Under the pieces are notes generated by a model, which was given only the letters and a program-made list of their open reading frames with translations, searched no databases and was not told where the DNA came from. Below, one piece after another: positions 11,031 through 18,686 of a DNA stretch of 64,000 nt; the stretch's first letter is position 1; each line of letters opens with the position of its first letter. The DNA is from Rhodobacterales bacterium. Its GTDB lineage: Bacteria; Pseudomonadota; Alphaproteobacteria; Rhodobacterales; Rhodobacteraceae. Location: contig PDRY01000013.1 of the NCBI GenBank assembly GCA_002748265.1, positions 344,669 to 408,668 of the forward strand, read 5' to 3'. Position numbers and translations under genes: made by a program.

Positions 11031-12287
11031 ATGCGCAGAGTTGTTGTCACGGGGCTGGGGCTGGTGACGCCGTTGGCCGATGGGGTGGACGCGAGCTGGA
11101 GCCGCATTCTGGACGGCGTTTCGGGCGCGGGTCCTATCACGCGTTTCGACACCGAGGGGCTGACCACCACCTATGCCTGCGAAGTGCCTCATGGCGAGGG
11201 CGAAGGCGAATTTGACGGGGCCAAATACATGGCGCCGAAGGATCAGCGCAAGGTCGATACCTTTATCCTTTACGGCATGGCAGCGGCTCAGCAGGCCGTT
11301 GAGGACGCGGGCTGGGCCATCGACGATGAGGACGAGCTGCTGCGCACCGGCGTTCTGCTGGGCTCGGGCATCGGCGGGCTTCAATCCATCGCCGACACGG
11401 CTGTGATGATGGAAGAGAAGGGGCCGCGCCGGGTGTCTCCGTTCTTTGTGCCCGGAGCGCTGATCAACCTGATTTCTGGTCAGGTTGCGATCAAATACGG
11501 CTTCAAGGGACCGAACCACGCGGTTGTCACGGCCTGTTCCACCGGGGCTCACGCCATTGGCGACGCCGCGCGGATCATCAAATACGGCGATGCCGATGTG
11601 ATGATCGCGGGCGGCGCGGAAGCGGCGATCTGCAAGATTGGCATCGCGGGTTTCAACGCCTGCAAGGCGCTGTCCACCGCGCGCACCGACGATCCCAAGA
11701 CGGCGAGCCGTCCGTGGGACGCGGATCGCGATGGGTTCGTGATGGGCGAGGGCGCCGGCGTCGTCGTTCTGGAGGAATACGAACACGCCAAGGCACGCGG
11801 GGCCAAGATCTACGCCGAAGTTCTGGGCTACGGCCTGTCGGGCGACGCCTATCACATCACCGCCCCGTCCGAGAACGGCGAGGGCGGCGAGCGCTCCATG
11901 CGGGCTGCGCTCAAGGATGCCGGGTTGGAGCCGACGGATATCGACTACATCAACGCCCATGGCACGAGCACCATGGCCGACACGATTGAGCTGGGCGCCG
12001 TGCAGCGGATGCTGGGCGATCACGCCAAGAATGTCGCGATGTCCTCGACCAAATCCATGACCGGCCACCTTCTGGGCGCGGCCGGCGCGATTGAGGCGAT
12101 CTTTGCCATCCTCGCGACCAAGCACAATGTGGCGCCGCCGACCATCAACCTGGACACGCCGCCGGAAGAGGCCGTTGTCGATCTTTGCGCGAATGAGAAA
12201 CGCGAGAAGACCATCGACGTGGCACTGTCCAACAGCTTTGGCTTTGGCGGCACCAATGCGAGCCTGATCGTCGGGAAACCGCGCTGA
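11031..12287 (+). CDS. fabF: 3-oxoacyl-[acyl-carrier-protein] synthase II
   Basis: Condenses malonyl-ACP with acyl-ACP during chain elongation. The thiolase-fold active site shows Cys169 (VTACSTGAH) and the two histidines in NAHGTSTMADTIE and SMTGHLLGAAGAIEA. At 418 aa it is the normal length. The stop overlaps the start of mltG by one base (TGATG), indicating translational coupling. Confidence 0.97.
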   Translation: MRRVVVTGLGLVTPLADGVDASWSRILDGVSGAGPITRFDTEGLTTTYACEVPHGEGEGEFDGAKYMAPKDQRKVDTFILYGMAAAQQAVEDAGWAIDDEDELLRTGVLLGSGIGGLQSIADTAVMMEEKGPRRVSPFFVPGALINLISGQVAIKYGFKGPNHAVVTACSTGAHAIGDAARIIKYGDADVMIAGGAEAAICKIGIAGFNACKALSTARTDDPKTASRPWDADRDGFVMGEGAGVVVLEEYEHAKARGAKIYAEVLGYGLSGDAYHITAPSENGEGGERSMRAALKDAGLEPTDIDYINAHGTSTMADTIELGAVQRMLGDHAKNVAMSSTKSMTGHLLGAAGAIEAIFAILATKHNVAPPTINLDTPPEEAVVDLCANEKREKTIDVALSNSFGFGGTNASLIVGKPR

Positions 12288-13453
12288 TGTGGAAAGCCAT
12301 TGCCAGCACGGCACTGTCTTTGTTCGTGGTCGGGCTGTTCCTGCTGGCCGGGGTGATCTTGTGGGGCACGAGCCAGTGGCGCGACCCCGGACCGCTGAGT
12401 GAGGCGATCTGCCTTGAGGTGCCTGCGGGCAGCTCCATGCGGTCGGTCAGCGAAGACCTAGCCGCGCAAGGGGCCATTAGCCAGCCGACCATCTTCCGGG
12501 CCGGAGCAGATTACGCGGAGAAATCCGCGCTGCTCAAAGCGGGTTCGTTCCTGATCCAGCCGGGCTCCTCCATGGAGGAGATCGTGGACACGATCACGGG
12601 CACCGGCCAATCGACCTGCGGCACGGAGATCGTCTGGCGTGTTGGCGTCACCCGCCAGCAGGCGGAGATCCGCACGCTGGATCCGGCCACGGGGCGCTAC
12701 GATGAGGTCGCCGAGTGGGACCCCGCCGCTGACGCTCCGGCGGAGTATGCGCAGTATGTGGACAAGCCGGACACCCAGTTCCGCGTCGTGATTGCTGAGG
12801 GCGTCACGAGCTGGCAGGTGCGCGATGCGTTGCGCAGCATCGGCATCCTAGATGGCGATCCGGGCGAGGTGCCCGAAGAGGGCTCTCTGGCGCCGGACAG
12901 CTATGCGATCCAGCCCGGAGATTCGGGTGCCGCGCTGATCGCGAAGATGCAAGAGGCGCAGAGCGCGCGGCTGCAAACGGTCTGGGACGCGCGGTCGGAC
13001 CGTACGGCGGTCGAGACGCTGGAAGACGCTCTGATTCTGGCCTCGATCATCGAGAAAGAGACCGGCGTTCCCGAGGAGCGGCGACAGGTCGCTGCCGTCT
13101 TCACCAACCGTCTGGAGCAGGGGATGCGGCTGCAGACCGACCCCACGGTGATCTACGGGATCACCAAGGGCGAGGGTGTGCTGGGCCGCGGCCTGCGCCG
13201 GTCCGAGCTGGATCGCGAGACGCCGTGGAACACCTATGTTATCGCAGGGTTGCCGCCCACGCCGATCGCCAATCCGGGCCTGGAGAGCCTGCGCGCGGCG
13301 GTCGATCCGTCGGATGATGACTACGTGTTCTTTGTCGCCGACGGCACGGGCGGCCATGCCTTTGCCACGACGCTGGACGAGCACAACCGCAATGTCGCCC
13401 GCTGGCGCCAGATCGAAGCGGAGCGCGCCGCGCAGCAGGGCGGCGGCAACTGA
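12287..13453 (+). CDS. mltG: Endolytic peptidoglycan transglycosylase
   Basis: Inner-membrane lytic transglycosylase of the YceG/MltG family that cleaves nascent glycan strands and sets their length. A single N-terminal transmembrane helix (residues 4-26) is followed by a LysM-like part and the catalytic domain with IIEKETGVPEERRQVAAVF (the catalytic Glu lies within IEKETG) and LQTDPTVIYG. At 388 aa it is typical. Its start overlaps the fabF stop. The downstream terminator at 13583 ends this operon before the GTA genes. Confidence 0.95.
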   Translation: MWKAIASTALSLFVVGLFLLAGVILWGTSQWRDPGPLSEAICLEVPAGSSMRSVSEDLAAQGAISQPTIFRAGADYAEKSALLKAGSFLIQPGSSMEEIVDTITGTGQSTCGTEIVWRVGVTRQQAEIRTLDPATGRYDEVAEWDPAADAPAEYAQYVDKPDTQFRVVIAEGVTSWQVRDALRSIGILDGDPGEVPEEGSLAPDSYAIQPGDSGAALIAKMQEAQSARLQTVWDARSDRTAVETLEDALILASIIEKETGVPEERRQVAAVFTNRLEQGMRLQTDPTVIYGITKGEGVLGRGLRRSELDRETPWNTYVIAGLPPTPIANPGLESLRAAVDPSDDDYVFFVADGTGGHAFATTLDEHNRNVARWRQIEAERAAQQGGGN

Positions 13454-13582
13454 TCCGGTTAACGGTTCTTGCCGCTCCCGCGCGCTGCGGGTGAAGAAAA
13501 CCTAGCCATATCGGGCGGTTGCCGGTTTGACAGACCGCCCGATGCCGGGCATGATTTCAGACATGCTGGACAAGCTGTGACA

Positions 13583-13614
13583 CCCTCGGGGCCCATGGGC
13601 GCCGGGGGTTTTTT
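13583..13614 (+). terminator. Terminator between mltG and the GTA genes
   Basis: GC-rich stem CCC-T-CGG...CCCATGGG...CCG-GGG with small bulges, followed by T6. It separates the fab/mltG operon from the GTA terminase genes. Confidence 0.75.
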
Positions 13615-13681
13615 CGTGACCGCGCCAAAGAGCGCGGCGCGGGCGCGGTCGGTGCTGGGCGGGCAACATACAGGCCAACCT

Positions 13682-14026
13682 ATGACCCAACCTATCGAGA
13701 CGCGCGATGCGCAAGAGCAGACCGAGCTGGAGCAAGCCCGGCTGCTGTTCACCCACATCAGCAGCACGCTGCATGCAGTGCTGCAGGAGGTCCGTAGCGG
13801 GGATCTGACCCATCTGGATCAGCTGACGAAGAAGCAGTTGCAACTGGAAGAGGTCGCCAACCGGGCCGCGAAACTGAAGGAGCAGTTCGATGCGAAACAC
13901 GACACGGGACTTCGAGACGGAGAGTTCGACCTTGACCGGGCTCGGTTTGAAATCGGGTGCAAGCTGGCTCGCCTCCGGGCCTGCTGCGATGCAGGACGAC
14001 TTTCTTGCGAGCTTGAGCGAGAGTGA
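13682..14026 (+). CDS. GTA small terminase-like protein (gp1 position)
   Basis: A 114-aa protein directly upstream of, and overlapping, the GTA large terminase. This matches the position and size of orfg1 of Rhodobacter capsulatus GTA, which has been assigned as TerS. It is largely helical (QARLLFTHISSTLHAVLQEV, LEEVANRAAKLKEQF), and its C-terminus resembles the arginine-rich end of orfg1 products (ARFEIGCKLARLR). The assignment depends mainly on synteny. The ORF is intact although much of the downstream cluster is deleted, so its present use is doubtful. Confidence 0.7.
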   Translation: MTQPIETRDAQEQTELEQARLLFTHISSTLHAVLQEVRSGDLTHLDQLTKKQLQLEEVANRAAKLKEQFDAKHDTGLRDGEFDLDRARFEIGCKLARLRACCDAGRLSCELERE

Positions 14027-15290
14027 GCTGCGGGCGCTGCCCTGGCTGTTCGATTTCTGGGCGGGGGAGCATCAGCTCCCCCCTCCGGGCGATTGGCGCT
14101 CCTGGGTGATCCTGGGCGGGCGCGGCGCGGGCAAGACGCGCGCCGGGGCCGAATGGGTGCGCGCCATGGTCGAGGGCGCGGGGCCCCGTGACCGGGGGCG
14201 CGCAGCGCGGGTGGCCTTGGTCGGCGAGACGCTGGACCAGGCGCGCGAAGTCATGGTGTTCGGGGAAAGCGGGCTCTTGGCCTGCGCCCCGCCGGATCGG
14301 AGACCCGAATGGCTGGCCGGGCGCAAGCAGTTGATCTGGCCCAATGGCGCGGTGGCGCAGATTTTGTCGGCTCATGACCCGGAGGGGCTGCGGGGCTACC
14401 AGTTTGACGCGCTCTGGGCCGATGAGCTGGCCAAGTGGAAGCGCGCGCAAGAGAGCTGGGACATGCTGCAATTCGCCTTGCGGCTGGGGGACGACCCGCG
14501 CGCCTGTATCACCACCACGCCGCGCAATGTCGCGGTGCTGCGCGATTTGCTGAACCGCGAGAGCACGGTGTCCACCCACGCCCCGACCGAGGCGAACCGT
14601 GCCTGGTTGGCGGATGGGTTCCTCGAAGAGGTTAAGGCCCGTTACGCTGGCACGCGTCTAGGCCGTCAGGAGCTGGAGGGCGAGCTGCTGGGCGATGCCG
14701 AGGGCGCTTTGTGGTCGAGCGATGCGCTGTCCGCAGGGCATCTGCGCGCGACGCCCGATCTGGCACGGGTCGTGGTCGCGGTGGACCCGCCGGTGAGCGG
14801 GCATGCGAAATCCGATGAATGCGGGATCATCGTGGCCGGTGTCACAATGGATGGCGATCCGGGCCAGTGGCGGGGCTATGTGCTGGAGGATGCCAGCGTA
14901 ACGGGCGCGTCGCCACTGGAATGGGCCCGCGCGGCCGTAGCTGCGGCAGAGCGCCACGGCGCCGACCGGGTGGTGGCCGAGGTCAATCAGGGCGGCGATC
15001 TGGTGGAGCAGGTGATCCGTCAGGTCGCGCCGCTTCTTCCATACCGAGCGGTACGGGCATCGCGAGGGAAGGCCGCGCGGGCGGAACCCGTCGCCGCGCT
15101 TTATGAGCAGGGCCGGGTGCGGCATCTGCGCGGGCTGGACACGCTGGAGGAGCAGATGTGCCAGATGACGCTTCACGGCTACGAGGGGCAGGGCAGTCCC
15201 GACCGGGTCGATGCTCTGGTCTGGGCGATCCATGAGCTGATGCTGGTCCCCGCAGCAAACTGGCAAGCGCCGCGCGTGCGGCATTTGTGA
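13890..15290 (+). CDS. GTA/phage-type terminase large subunit
   Basis: Packaging ATPase and nuclease of gene transfer agent or siphophage type (orfg2 position). Walker A is ILGGRGAGKT, Walker B is LWADEL, and the RNase H-like nuclease domain begins VVAVDPPVSG with later acidic positions (AEVNQGGD, VDALVWAIHEL). Length 466 aa from 13890, where AAGGAG precedes the ATG; that start overlaps the upstream gene by 137 bases. An alternative start is 13989 (MQDDFLASL), which fits the family N-terminus but lacks a clear ribosome-binding site. The frame is intact, yet portal, protease and capsid genes are missing after it. Confidence 0.9.
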   Translation: MRNTTRDFETESSTLTGLGLKSGASWLASGPAAMQDDFLASLSESELRALPWLFDFWAGEHQLPPPGDWRSWVILGGRGAGKTRAGAEWVRAMVEGAGPRDRGRAARVALVGETLDQAREVMVFGESGLLACAPPDRRPEWLAGRKQLIWPNGAVAQILSAHDPEGLRGYQFDALWADELAKWKRAQESWDMLQFALRLGDDPRACITTTPRNVAVLRDLLNRESTVSTHAPTEANRAWLADGFLEEVKARYAGTRLGRQELEGELLGDAEGALWSSDALSAGHLRATPDLARVVVAVDPPVSGHAKSDECGIIVAGVTMDGDPGQWRGYVLEDASVTGASPLEWARAAVAAAERHGADRVVAEVNQGGDLVEQVIRQVAPLLPYRAVRASRGKAARAEPVAALYEQGRVRHLRGLDTLEEQMCQMTLHGYEGQGSPDRVDALVWAIHELMLVPAANWQAPRVRHL

Positions 15291-15341
15291 CGCGAGATCA
15301 AGGCGCTTGCCTTCCGCGCGGTCGGAGGCTTTCCTGGCGCT

Positions 15342-15560
15342 ATGGCGAAGCTGGTTCTGACCCACAAAGCCGGTTCGATCTATGAGGATGAGCCGGATGC
15401 TGTTGAAGATTGGGCCGGGCACGATGAGGTCGTGCCGGGCCGTGAAGTGACCTCGCGGTGGTGCAGATCGCCGGGGTGATACCAAAGCCCGAGGTGGAGG
15501 GGCGCGATCAGGCGTTGATCGTACTGGGCACAAATTTGCCTTTTGCTCAGACCTTTAGGA
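15342..15560 (+). pseudogene. Remnant of a small HNH-endonuclease-like protein
   Basis: The ATG at 15342 begins MAKLVLTHKAGSIYEDEPD, which resembles the N-terminus of a widespread family annotated as HNH endonuclease (MAK...THKxxSIYDDxP). The frame then drifts and stops at 15480. A different frame from about 15458 gives IPKPEVEGRDQALIVLGTNL, which fits the later part of the same family. An internal deletion plus frameshift explains both. The family recollection is from memory and should be searched. No intact gene is present between 15291 and 15598. Confidence 0.45.
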
Positions 15561-15598
15561 CGTCTTCAGAAAACTTCGATCACAGTGATGCGTCAGGA

Positions 15599-15835
15599 TC
15601 AGGCTGACGGCCAGCTAGCGTCTTTCTGGAGGGCGCGCGATTGCGCCCGGTCGAGCGCGGCGCGCGCCTGAGCAGGGTTCGGGCCGTGCCGTGTCCAGAT
15701 GCGCAGGGCGGCGGTGGTGCTGAACGGAAGGGCGGCGTCGCGGAGCCAGGCGCGCAGATCGGGTGGGAGCGCGTCGAAGCGGTTCATGGATCGGGCGCGG
15801 CGGCGCGGGAGGGTGGTGCGGAGGTTGCGGGGCAT
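15599..15835 (-). CDS. DUF6525-like small protein
   Basis: A 78-aa basic protein: MPRNLRTTLPRRRARSMN at the start, then FDALPPDLRAWLRDAALPF and a helical end (AQARAALDRAQSRALQKD). It resembles the small Rhodobacteraceae family DUF6525 (pattern FDxLPPxLRxWL). No function is known. It lies antisense inside the decayed GTA region, between the terminase and the tail remnants, where portal to capsid genes would normally be. It may therefore have come in with the rearrangement. Confidence 0.55.
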   Translation of the reverse strand: MPRNLRTTLPRRRARSMNRFDALPPDLRAWLRDAALPFSTTAALRIWTRHGPNPAQARAALDRAQSRALQKDASWPSA

Positions 15836-15992
15836 GCTGATTGGATAGGTTATGAGATAACATATCGGTATCCGTTGCGCGGCCCCGTGGCAACCGCACG
15901 GATGGTTACTGCGGCATTAACCTCTGTCCCTCAGATTGCTTCTCAACGACGCGGTGCCCTCTGGCGCTGCAAACGCAATCAAGGAGCGGCCG

Positions 15993-16315
15993 ATGTTCGA
16001 GTTTCTGAAACGTCCCGTGGAGACGGTCGAGGTCACGTCCCTCGACAGCGCGAGCTGCTGGGCGGCGCGGGCGTGAAAACCGCTGCGGTGTCGGGGCAGG
16101 GCGTCTTTCGCGACGAGGCGAGCGATGAGCGCGTCCGGCAGGTGTTCTTTGACGGCGAGACGCCGCGCTTTCAGGTCATCATCCCCGATTTCGGCATCAT
16201 CGAGGGCCCGTTCCAGGTGACCGCTTTGGAATATGCCGGGGCTGTGGCGGGGGAGGCGACCTTTGAGATGTCGCTCGCCTCAGCCGGGGAGATCGGCTTC
16301 ACGGCGGCTCTGTAA
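15993..16315 (+). pseudogene. Chimeric GTA remnant: portal start fused to major tail protein
   Basis: After AAGGAG, the ATG at 15993 reads MFEFLKRP, like the first codons of GTA portal proteins, and passes directly into VETVEVTSLDS, which is an internal motif of the GTA major tail protein (gp9, pattern ETVDVTSL). The frame stops at 16074. Another frame from about 16044 restores the tail protein: RELLGGAGVKTAAVSGQGVF, PDFGIIEGPFQVTALEY and the SLASAGEIGF end, closing at 16315. So two lesions are visible: a large deletion joining gene 3 to gene 9, and a small frameshifting deletion near 16044. Confidence 0.7.
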
Positions 16316-16626
16316 TGGCCAATCCGCTGGCAGGAGAGGTCGATGTGACCGTGGACGGGCGCGTTTTCTGCGCCCGGCTCACCCTGGGCGCTCTGGCCGA
16401 GCTGGAAGAGGAGCTGGGCGAAGACAGCCTCGTCGCTCTGGCGGCGCGGTTCGAAGAGGGCCGGTTTTCGTCGCGCGATGTGCTGGCGGTGCTGGTTGCC
16501 GGGCTGCGCGGCGGCGGCTGGGAGGGTCGGGCGCCTGACCTTTTGAACGCCCGGATTGAGGGCGGCCCGCTCGGCGCTGCACGGATGGCGGCGCAGCTTC
16601 TGGCCCGCGCCTTCGCCGCGCCATGA
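16315..16626 (+). CDS. GTA gp10-family protein
   Basis: A 103-aa protein of the gene transfer agent family GTA_gp10 (orfg10 position): MANPLAGEVDVTVDGR, then RLTLGALAELEEELG and the helical LARAFAAP end. In the complete cluster it acts with the tail; its exact role is poorly defined. The start overlaps the preceding stop (TAATG), and the next gene overlaps its stop (ATGA), which preserves the ancestral operon spacing. The ORF is intact but stranded between two deletions. Confidence 0.8.
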   Translation: MANPLAGEVDVTVDGRVFCARLTLGALAELEEELGEDSLVALAARFEEGRFSSRDVLAVLVAGLRGGGWEGRAPDLLNARIEGGPLGAARMAAQLLARAFAAP

Positions 16627-16850
16627 GCGAGGACCGGCGCGGCGGCATCGCCTGGGGCGCCTTGATGCGCGCGGCCATCCGCGAGCGGGGGCTGCTGCCC
16701 GCGCAGTTCTGGGCGCTCACCCCGGCTGAGCTGATGCTGCTGCTGGGGCGCGATGGTGGCGGCGTGCAGCCCATGGCGCGGGCGCGGCTGGAGGAACTGG
16801 CTGCCGCCTGGCCGGACAAAGGATCGGAGGATGACCATGGACGAGATTGA
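16623..16850 (+). CDS. GTA gp10.1-like tail assembly chaperone
   Basis: A 75-aa protein matching the small ORF between gp10 and the tape measure in GTA clusters (rcc01693-type phage tail assembly chaperone). It has the usual WGALMRAAIRERGLLPAQFW and LTPAELMLLLG, with a helical end. It overlaps gp10 by four bases and the tape-measure remnant by 14. The frame is intact. Confidence 0.75.
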   Translation: MSEDRRGGIAWGALMRAAIRERGLLPAQFWALTPAELMLLLGRDGGGVQPMARARLEELAAAWPDKGSEDDHGRD

Positions 16851-17208
16851 CAAGCTAGAGGCGGAGACCGGCGATCTGGGCCGCGCGGCGGCAGAGAGCG
16901 CCGAGATGGCCCGCGTGTTCAGCGCCGAGCTGCGTACTGTGCGCAGCGCAACAGATGAGACCGCGCGGTCCCTCAGCGGGTTGGAGCGCGGTTTTTCCGG
17001 CGGCGTACGCAAGGCCATCGACAGCGTGGTGCTGGATGGCGGGCGGCTTTCCGATGCGCTTGGCATCCTGGCGCAGTCCATTTCGCGCACTGCCTACAAC
17101 GCCGCGATGAAGCCCGTGTCGGACCATTTCGGCGGTCTTCTGGCCAATGGTGTGAACGCCATGATGGGCGAGGTCCTGCCCTTTGCCAATGGCGCCCTCT
17201 GTCATCCG
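16837..17208 (+). pseudogene. Truncated GTA tape-measure gene
   Basis: The first about 124 codons of the tail tape-measure protein (orfg11 position): MDEIDKLEAETGDLGRAAAE, coiled-coil sequence, then GGLLANGVNAMMGEVLPFANGA. There the homology ends and the sequence becomes the upstream region of cysE. No stop intervenes, so the frame runs through into cysE. GGAGG precedes the ATG at 16837 by 6 bases. The rest of the tape measure and genes 12-15 (tail tip, peptidase, host recognition) are missing. Confidence 0.75.
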
Positions 17209-17304
17209 GCGGGAAACGCTCACATTCGCTTGTCCGGGGGTTTTCCCTCGCCGCCCGGACGCCTAGGGTCCGGCGCAGTCTGGATGCAACCCGAGAGCGA
17301 CCCT

Positions 17305-18108
17305 ATGGCCAACCCTAAGATCGAGCCCGATGCGCTGTGGACGCGGATTCGCGAAGAAGCCGCGAGCGCGATTGCGGCAGAACCGCTGATCGGGGGCGTG
17401 CTGCACGCCTGCATCCTGCACCATGACACGCTTGATTGCGCCCTGGCTTACCGGCTGGCCACAAAGCTTGCTTCGGCCGATATGAGCGAGCAGATCCTGC
17501 GCGAGATCGCGGATGAAGCCTACGCCGCCGATCCGGCCCTGATCCACGCTGCCCGCGCGGATTTGATGGCCATCCTGGAGCGCGATCCGGCCTGCCACCG
17601 GCTCATGCAGCCGCTGATGTATTTCAAGGGATTCCAGGCCGTGCAGGCCCACCGCCTGTCCCATGCGCTCTGGACCCAGGGACGGAGCGATCTGGCCTAC
17701 TATCTTCAGATGCGCAGCTCTGAGCTTTACGGCGTCGATATCCATCCCGGCGCGACGATCGGTCAGGGGCTGATGATCGACCACGCCCATTCCATCGTGA
17801 TCGGAGAGACGGCCGTGGTCGGGGATAATGTCTCGATGCTCCATGCCGTGACGCTGGGCGGCACCGGTAAAGAGGACGAGGACCGGCACCCCAAGATCGA
17901 AGATGGCGTTCTGATCGGCGCCGGGGCCAAAGTGCTGGGCAATATCCGCGTGGGCTGCTGCTCGCGTATTGCGGCCGGGTCCGTCGTGCTGGCGGATGTC
18001 CCGGCCCACTCGACGGTTGCGGGCGTGCCGGCCAAGGTCGTTGGCGAAGCGGGTTGCCCGGAACCGGCGGCCAGCATGAACCAGCTTCTGGCGGATCTGC
18101 CGCGATGA
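17305..18108 (+). CDS. cysE: Serine O-acetyltransferase
   Basis: Makes O-acetylserine from serine and acetyl-CoA for cysteine synthesis. The N-terminal helical domain (IREEAASAIAAEPLIGGVL) is followed by left-handed beta-helix hexapeptide repeats (GVDIHPGATIGQGLMIDHAH, VSMLHAVTLGGTG, IGAGAKVLGNI). From the ATG at 17305 it is 267 aa, the usual length. The frame is open further upstream through the tape-measure remnant, but MANPKIEPDALW is the natural start. It overlaps the next acetyltransferase gene by ATGA. Confidence 0.96.
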   Translation: MANPKIEPDALWTRIREEAASAIAAEPLIGGVLHACILHHDTLDCALAYRLATKLASADMSEQILREIADEAYAADPALIHAARADLMAILERDPACHRLMQPLMYFKGFQAVQAHRLSHALWTQGRSDLAYYLQMRSSELYGVDIHPGATIGQGLMIDHAHSIVIGETAVVGDNVSMLHAVTLGGTGKEDEDRHPKIEDGVLIGAGAKVLGNIRVGCCSRIAAGSVVLADVPAHSTVAGVPAKVVGEAGCPEPAASMNQLLADLPR

Positions 18109-18686
18109 AGCGGCAAGGGTTCGACCCGCTGCCGGTCTTGACCGGACCGAGCCTGATCTTGCGCCCGCTGACGCGGGAGGACGTCCCCGCCCTGGTCGCG
18201 GCGGCGGCGGATCCGGCGATCTGGGCGCAGCACCCGGCGCAGGACCGGTGGAAGCCGGAGGTCATGGTGCCTTATGCCGAATGGCTGGCCGATGAGGGTA
18301 GCCTTGTTGTCGAAGACGCCGCCGGAGTGGCGGGCACCTCGCGCTTTTATGAGGCGTGGAACGCGCCCGGAGACATCTCTATCGGCTACACCTTCCTGAC
18401 CCGCGCGCATTGGGGCGGTGCGGGCAATGCGGAGCTCAAGGCGCTCATGCTTGAGCACGCCTTTCGCTACACCGATCATGTCTGGTTTCACATTGCGGCA
18501 GACAATCTGCGTTCCCAGTCCGCAACCGCAAAGCTCGGCGCTCGCTTGATCGAAGAGACCATGGGACCGGGGCCGGAACCCAAGCTCTATCACTGTTTCA
18601 GCGTCTCGCGCGGGGCCTGGCGGGCCAGCCCCGCAGCCGCAACAGCGCGTGCGGCGGGGCTGGCATTGGATCAGGCAGAGAGCTGA
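18105..18686 (+). CDS. GNAT-family N-acetyltransferase
   Basis: A 193-aa GNAT protein of the ribosomal-protein-alanine/RimJ-like type: LILRPLTREDVPAL, GYTFLTRAHWGGAGNAELK and NLRSQSATAKLGARLIEE. The last is the acetyl-CoA and catalytic region of this group. The substrate is unknown. It overlaps the cysE stop by four bases, so the two are probably co-transcribed. Its 3' end overlaps the convergent AhpD-like gene by 16 bases. Confidence 0.8.
   Translation: MKRQGFDPLPVLTGPSLILRPLTREDVPALVAAAADPAIWAQHPAQDRWKPEVMVPYAEWLADEGSLVVEDAAGVAGTSRFYEAWNAPGDISIGYTFLTRAHWGGAGNAELKALMLEHAFRYTDHVWFHIAADNLRSQSATAKLGARLIEETMGPGPEPKLYHCFSVSRGAWRASPAAATARAAGLALDQAES

Follow-up and report, generated by a model that had tools for sequence, protein, structure and literature searches.

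RcGTA-like genes, named after the gene transfer agent (GTA) of Rhodobacter capsulatus, are found in many genomes (PMC9662315, PMC11841831). In R. capsulatus, yceG lies upstream of the first cluster gene, g1, and cysE1 is the downstream neighbour (PMC9552610). The direct activator of the GTA is GafA, whose homologues carry the domain DUF6456 (PMC9638019), and GTA release requires lysis of the producing cell (PMC9836097). The small terminase (TerS), which has a C-terminal helix as its hallmark, binds the ATPase domain of the large terminase, TerL (PMC6854486). Here we describe a GTA cluster in a stretch of 64,000 nucleotides from a Rhodobacterales bacterium (G000:C2:344669-408668, hereafter the window; G numbers denote genomes and L numbers cluster loci). 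It is very probably a dead RcGTA-type cluster that was emptied by two internal deletions and one small frameshifting loss. GTA loss of this kind is ordinary, and the window shows a clean instance of it; a codon-exact fusion of TerL to gp15 that recurs among its relatives is a separate, stranger pattern. The source genome, G000, is a 2.79 Mb draft of 56 contigs with a completeness of 88.4% and a contamination of 3.8%.

The window was searched by tblastn (E <=0.01) with the proteins of the intact cluster L032 and, in addition, by profile scans. Matches were obtained by tblastn to gp1 (28% identity, E 9e-5), gp2/TerL (71%, residues 2-456), gp9 (residues 31-138 of 138), gp10, gp10.1, gp11 (residues 3-122 of 219) and cysE, and by profiles to Terminase_6N/6C, Phage_tail_2 (C-terminal part only), Phage_TAC_11 and Phage_TAC_6, together with an RcGTA_tape match at positions 4-123 of 220 that falls under the whole-protein cut-off of that model. 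Both methods agree with the original prediction, made from the sequence alone, of a Rhodobacterales-type order TerS, TerL, gp10, gp10.1, tape measure. The YceG family, the cysE model and the coordinates place the cluster between mltG/yceG and cysE, the same host neighbours that RcGTA has. Flanks and gene order are thus shared with RcGTA-type clusters, as are the families of TerL, gp10, gp10.1 and gp11 and the overlapping starts and stops, whereas about 11 of about 14 kb are missing, portal, capsid, protease, connectors and gp12-gp15 among them, and GafA was not found. The features are:

12287..13453, plus strand: mltG/yceG, the upstream host flank (YceG PF02618, E 1.9e-75; homologues in the loci of relatives)
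13682..14026, plus strand: homologue of TerS (gp1), 114 amino acids, overlapping the start of TerL (tblastn against gp1 of L032; C-terminal helix DLDRARFEIGCKLARLRACC)
13890..15290, plus strand: TerL (gp2), 466 amino acids, open and full length, with Walker A GGRGAGKT (Terminase_6N/6C; 71% to L032)
15602..15835, minus strand: DUF6525 gene in the spacer between TerL and gp3 (PF20135, E 9e-18)
15993..16025, plus strand: first 8-11 codons of the portal gene gp3 (MFEFLKRP...), bordering deletion 1 on the left (portal starts of relatives)
16026..16315, plus strand: remnant of gp9 (major tail), 5' part lost, frameshifted near its start (Phage_tail_2, TIGR02126, tblastn)
16315..16626, plus strand: gp10, open, 103 amino acids (Phage_TAC_11, E 1.5e-28)
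16623..16850, plus strand: gp10.1, open, 75 amino acids (Phage_TAC_6, E 1.1e-18; TIGR02216 under the cut-off of that model)
16837..17205, plus strand: N-terminal remnant of the tape-measure gene gp11, some 122 codons long, bordering deletion 2 on the left (RcGTA_tape 4-123 of 220)
17305..18108, plus strand: cysE, the downstream host flank, in frame with the gp11 remnant (TIGR01172 above cut-off)

Profiles, tblastn and alignment concur that a GTA-type large terminase with ATPase and nuclease domains is present, and its full-length frame is open, as predicted. Ahead of it stands the frame of a small terminase with the conserved C-terminal helix; the tblastn match is weak (E 9e-5) and no Pfam family scored above cut-off, and the helix is visible in the sequence. 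The predicted overlaps TAATG (gp9/gp10) and ATGA (gp10/gp10.1) are likewise both seen in the sequence.

Alignment to the complete cluster L032 confirmed the two-deletion reading and corrected its joints. Joint 1 leads from about codon 9 of gp3 to about codon 36 of gp9 and is directly followed by the small frameshifting loss, so that gp9 is left without an in-frame start. Genes 3-8 and part of 9 had been reported gone, which is right for gp4-gp8, most of gp3 and the 5' part of gp9, but the start of gp3 survives at 15993, where many relatives begin MFDFLKR... Joint 2 leads from about codon 122 of gp11 to about 100 bp upstream of cysE. The tape measure had been said to stop after about 124 codons; its homology does end near codon 122, at about 17205, but the frame runs on and stays open through cysE (16837-18108, 424 codons including the stop). 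Scaled on L032 coordinates, the deletions are estimated at about 4.8 kb (joint 1) and 6.5 kb (joint 2). There is no N within 13000-18500, and both joints lie on one contig of at least 408 kb. With L032 queries, tblastn found no match in the window for gp3, gp3.5, gp4-gp8 and gp12-gp15, which bears out the predicted absence of genes 12-15. The lack of a match in the window for portal, protease, capsid, connectors and gp12-gp15 supports the view, also held in the original prediction, that the remaining cluster would be unable to build particles.

A search for a second GTA cluster or the missing genes elsewhere found none in the assembled genome. TerL is single-copy in G000, and its assembly contains neither the capsid nor the GTA_TIM domain of gp15, whose queries matched in 86 and 84, respectively, of the 147 genomes searched. 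Nor was the portal found in the G000 contigs, by a search without a positive control of its own; for protease, connectors and gp12-gp14, equally not found, the search covered the window. Of the 55 family genomes examined for a GafA-type DUF6456, 49 have it; this 88%-complete draft is among the six in which it was not found, together with G008 (82% complete, GTA genes present), G017 (distant TerL only) and three genomes that match neither TerL nor capsid nor GTA_TIM (G014, G029 and G033). As a single gene missing from a draft, the gap in G000 could be due to chance. Elsewhere the DUF6456 gene is retained despite structural collapse (G003, with one stop within the match, G013, G018, G030, G036, G043 and G045), and because of this persistence the GafA regulator may outlast its target or serve other targets.

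We propose that the two deletions, with the small frameshifting loss, have taken portal, protease, capsid and connectors together with most of the tail genes and the gene for host attachment, and that TerS, TerL, gp10, gp10.1 and the start of gp11 were retained because they lay outside both deletions. The deletions are probably recent relative to the age of the lineage, and TerL would now be drifting unused. The loss may have been favoured, or at least tolerated, because GTA release needs lysis of the producing cells.

To place the window among its relatives, we used a family set of 90 genomes (G000-G089), some of them incomplete drafts. Eighteen of these 90 sampled genera have no capsid match, and in two more, G036 and G070, the only match is fragmentary or unrelated. 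GTA loss is common in the family, and the earlier statement that the GTA is usually conserved in this lineage needs weakening. The cluster was read in 12 of these 20 genomes (G000, G003, G013, G018, G030, G036, G043, G045, G055, G070, G076 and G079). Outside the 12 are G014, G029, G032, G033 and G059, which have no TerL match, G017, with its distant TerL, and G021 and G028, left out because TerL lies near a contig end. TerL is whole and open in two of the 12 (G000 and G036), and nine retain the 3' part of gp15. Seven of these clusters (G003, G013, G018, G030, G036, G045 and G076) resemble the window in that the interior is gone and the cysE flank and ordered remnants are kept. They differ in their breakpoints, five retaining the 3' end of gp15 and six having TerL cut or broken, which is the reverse of the window. 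In G071, capsid and TerL are kept and gp13, gp14 and nearly all of gp15 are lost. Collapses with breakpoints other than those of the window are common in relatives and include some in one-contig genomes (G003, G045 and G055). Of 54 species in the genus of G043, at least 18 have a collapsed cluster, 10 by the fusion described below and at least eight by other joints, and TerL is whole in three of those eight (G452, G483 and G498); whole cluster regions covered all but 15 of these 54 species and a small part of the 62 species in that of G055. Collapses with a whole TerL also occur in Tabrizicola rongguiensis (L076) and Ruegeria sp. (L087, L094), but these and the other named loci were found via TerL and so are unusable for counting TerL survival. 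In G142 (C1:1672792-1673700), a gp15 match lies inside a reported open frame of 32,612 codons, which is probably an N run or masked sequence and not a gene.

The original prediction raised the possibility that the terminase has been kept for another use. Under this explanation, TerS and TerL would have outlived the structural genes by serving the cell, for instance as an ATPase and nuclease that translocates DNA. We compared branches in a tree of 74 loci, expressing the end branch relative to that of fabF+mltG and ranking rows with a flank branch >0.08. TerL is open and shows no lengthened branch (ratio 1.16, median 1.31; rank 22 of 35 from the top), and none of its 76 sites that are invariant in all other rows has changed. 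TerS retains its helix in the window, and in other lineages TerS survives, as does the ATPase part of TerL within the fusion. TerL is also whole in the collapses of G036, G452, G483 and G498 and, in the sample biased by being found via TerL, in L076, L077, L087, L094 and L128. On the other hand, gp10, gp10.1 and the gp11 remnant are open too and would hardly be useful, GafA was not found in G000, and TerL is whole in just two of the 12 collapsed clusters of the family sample. Moreover, two of 65 near-invariant sites in the N-terminal part of TerL have changed near Walker B (LRGYQFDALWADEL), within the range of zero to three in intact rows. The control remnants are unremarkable too, with ratios of 2.01 for gp10 (median 1.47, rank 8 of 23) and 2.11 for the N-terminal part of gp11 (median 1.50, rank 7 of 28). 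No change was seen at the 13 invariant sites in each of gp10 and gp10.1, and one of five had changed in the gp11 part, which one other row equals. The remnants, gp9 excepted, look fresh, which fits a recent deletion, so that the good condition of TerL requires no special reason. That selection singled out TerL is unsupported, the control remnants being much alike and TerL being cut or broken in 10 of the 12 family-sample collapses, and we consider retention for another use improbable.

Two further explanations are each less probable still. If the gap were an artefact of assembly or binning, the living organism would carry a whole cluster; G000 is an 88%-complete draft in 56 contigs, known from assembled sequence alone, but the artefact would have had to create two separate joints in one contig of at least 408 kb with no N around either, and the small frameshift at joint 1 is not an expected product of an assembler. 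In addition, capsid, portal and gp15 were not found in any of the 56 contigs, and similar collapses exist in one-contig genomes. Equally improbable is that the second deletion created a useful gene by joining the gp11 N-terminus in frame to the serine acetyltransferase CysE (16837-18108). In its favour, 424 codons (stop included) can be read without interruption, and the cysE of the window has changed at 6 of 113 otherwise invariant sites, the highest of 21 rows and above each of its 20 relatives. Yet cysE has its own ATG at 17305, near the starts of its relatives, cysE1 of R. capsulatus is on a separate transcript (PMC9552610), and an open frame across a link of about 100 bp is weak evidence in a GC-rich genome. 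Three points nevertheless weigh against reading the cluster as dead and twice deleted. G000 is a draft (56 contigs, 88% complete, 3.8% contaminated), which leaves some small room for a misassembly or an overlooked activator; a TerL free of decay is equally expected under selection for a retained use; and the relatives compared, all from other genera, give no date for the deletions.

The spacer between TerL and gp3 (15290-15993) carries the minus-strand DUF6525 gene, for which the matches listed include no convincing counterpart in other loci. Such spacers measure 19 to 1429 bp elsewhere (105 loci, some genomes being counted twice). A nuclease gene at 15342-15604, proposed from a resemblance, was dropped as it has no Pfam match, and the 60 of 398 tblastx matches listed for the spacer were scattered GC-rich noise.

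Reading the collapsed clusters revealed a second pattern. In four of the 12 (G043, G055, G070 and G079), TerL residues 1 to about 169 run straight into gp15, which is followed by cysE. The TerL side ends ...GPQFDxAWVDE and the gp15 side continues xGCxAxDKGxNQPNK... to the end of gp15, with a frameshift along the way in G055. The fusion protein consists of the ATPase half of TerL up to the Walker B glutamate and the last ~650 residues of gp15, the joint falling directly after the glutamate of the gp15 TIM-barrel motif WFTE. The fused proteins of G043 and G079, when scanned, matched Terminase_6N (2-105 of 215), GTA_TIM (204-299 of 299), Phage-tail_3 and Rcc01698_C, all above cut-off. Running the joint pattern over 394 family genomes gave matches in 22, of which tblastn confirmed 11 as fusions, all from different genera (G043, G055, G070, G079, G149, G194, G196, G274, G298, G301 and G450). 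The fusion is present in 10 of 54 species in the genus of G043 and in four of 62 in that of G055, which brings the fused species to 23 in all (the 11 representatives of genera, nine more in the first genus and three more in the second; loci L195 for G070, L039 for G055, L266 for G043, L041 for G079, and L176-L182, L247-L255 and L267-L269). All 23 have the junction residues W-x-D-E followed by x-G-C. The fused frame is full length in 19, broken in three (G055, G450 and G488) and cut by a contig end in one (G196). Seven other TerL-to-gp15 joints (L042, L043, L046, L119, L256, L257 and L262) are all different.

Like the window, the fused loci are collapsed GTA clusters with the start of TerL, mostly beside cysE and with a TerS frame where examined. 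They differ from it by the exact in-frame junction and the long fused frame: the pattern has no match in G000, and the TerL of the window continues beyond Walker B. In viral contigs, a longer fusion pattern gave no matches, and another search gave six, none with GTA proteins by tblastn. We found no published account of the fusion or of this collapse in the titles and abstract beginnings of the open-licence literature, and the portions of PMC9662315 and PMC11841831 available to us contain nothing on deletions of this kind.

A single origin of the junction was rejected at the family level by the approximately unbiased (AU) test, both for the gp15 part (p-AU 1.7e-40, with nine of the 11 fused rows, as the gp15 piece was too short in two) and for the TerL part (9e-4, 11 rows). 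It was also rejected within the genus of G043 (2e-85 for gp15; 1.8e-3 for TerL, nine of 10 rows; 1e-49 for mltG), and was not rejected within the genus of G055 (0.257). In the gp15 tree for the genus of G043, the well-supported branches require at least six changes between the labels fused and intact; the trees are quick ones and the count is blind to gain versus loss, although regain of a whole cluster is less likely than its loss. Microhomology as the cause is unsupported by both site comparisons in intact loci. In 29 of 34 such loci (the motif was not found in five), the two sites agree in 9-15 of 24 bases, and thousands to more than one million placements across the two genes are equally good. 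Across 18 intact loci from the genus of G043, the stretch of identity at the junction is 4-8 nt against longest matches of 11-17 nt, and 227 to about 36,000 exact matches between the two genes are as long as that stretch.

Spread of the joint on a short horizontal tract is unsupported as well, since near the joint fused species are barely more alike than intact species are. For the genus of G043, codon sharing over the first 20 gp15 codons is 0.44 among fused and 0.50 among intact species, and in the two TerL bins nearest the joint the values are 0.64 for fused against 0.66 for intact and 0.62 against 0.57. In the three groups compared, the G052/G009 group (M) and the genera of G055 (Y) and G043 (L), the residue after the glutamate is that of the local intact relatives. 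Given the lack of extra likeness at the joint and the locally matching residue, short-tract spread appears unlikely. This leaves either some sequence-specific process of deletion or selection that favours the exact hybrid protein.

For the sister pair G489/G490, the ratio of nonsynonymous to synonymous rates (dN/dS) is 0.043 in the TerL part and 0.050 in the gp15 part; for G079/G274 it is 0.13 and 0.17, and computable pairs in the genus of G055 give 0.05-0.18. These values are similar to those of intact pairs, and the ratios are rough since dS in the gp15 part is often >1. Fusions shared by descent within the pairs would mean that the hybrid protein is constrained, and recent, independent fusions would have inherited the same values from the intact state. 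Among the fused loci of the genus of G043, the TerS frame is open in 10 of 10 and its C-terminal helix is kept in eight. Intact frames alone are no proof of selection, because TerL is also open in many collapsed clusters without the fusion, and the evidence for selection on the fused protein is suggestive only. As a separate observation, the portion of TerS that lies upstream of TerL in L227-L266 has a dS of 0.02-0.28 in the seven pairs computed, against 0.33-0.68 for these pairs in the N-terminal part of TerL, which hints at an added constraint on the DNA there. The fused protein might possibly interfere with packaging or entry of phages or GTAs. That collapse across the family repeatedly leaves TerS in place and yields one selected TerL-gp15 gene, whose identical junction arises independently, so that the GTA is convergently reused as a cellular protein and the window represents a route without fusion, we regard as a serious possibility with slightly less than an even chance of being correct.

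The window adds one more case of GTA loss, and the fusion outweighs it in significance. If many independent collapses truly end in one codon-exact fusion, this would imply either a sequence-specific deletion process not recognized so far or a selected hybrid protein, and either cause would bear on the question why GTA genes persist although their release kills the cell.

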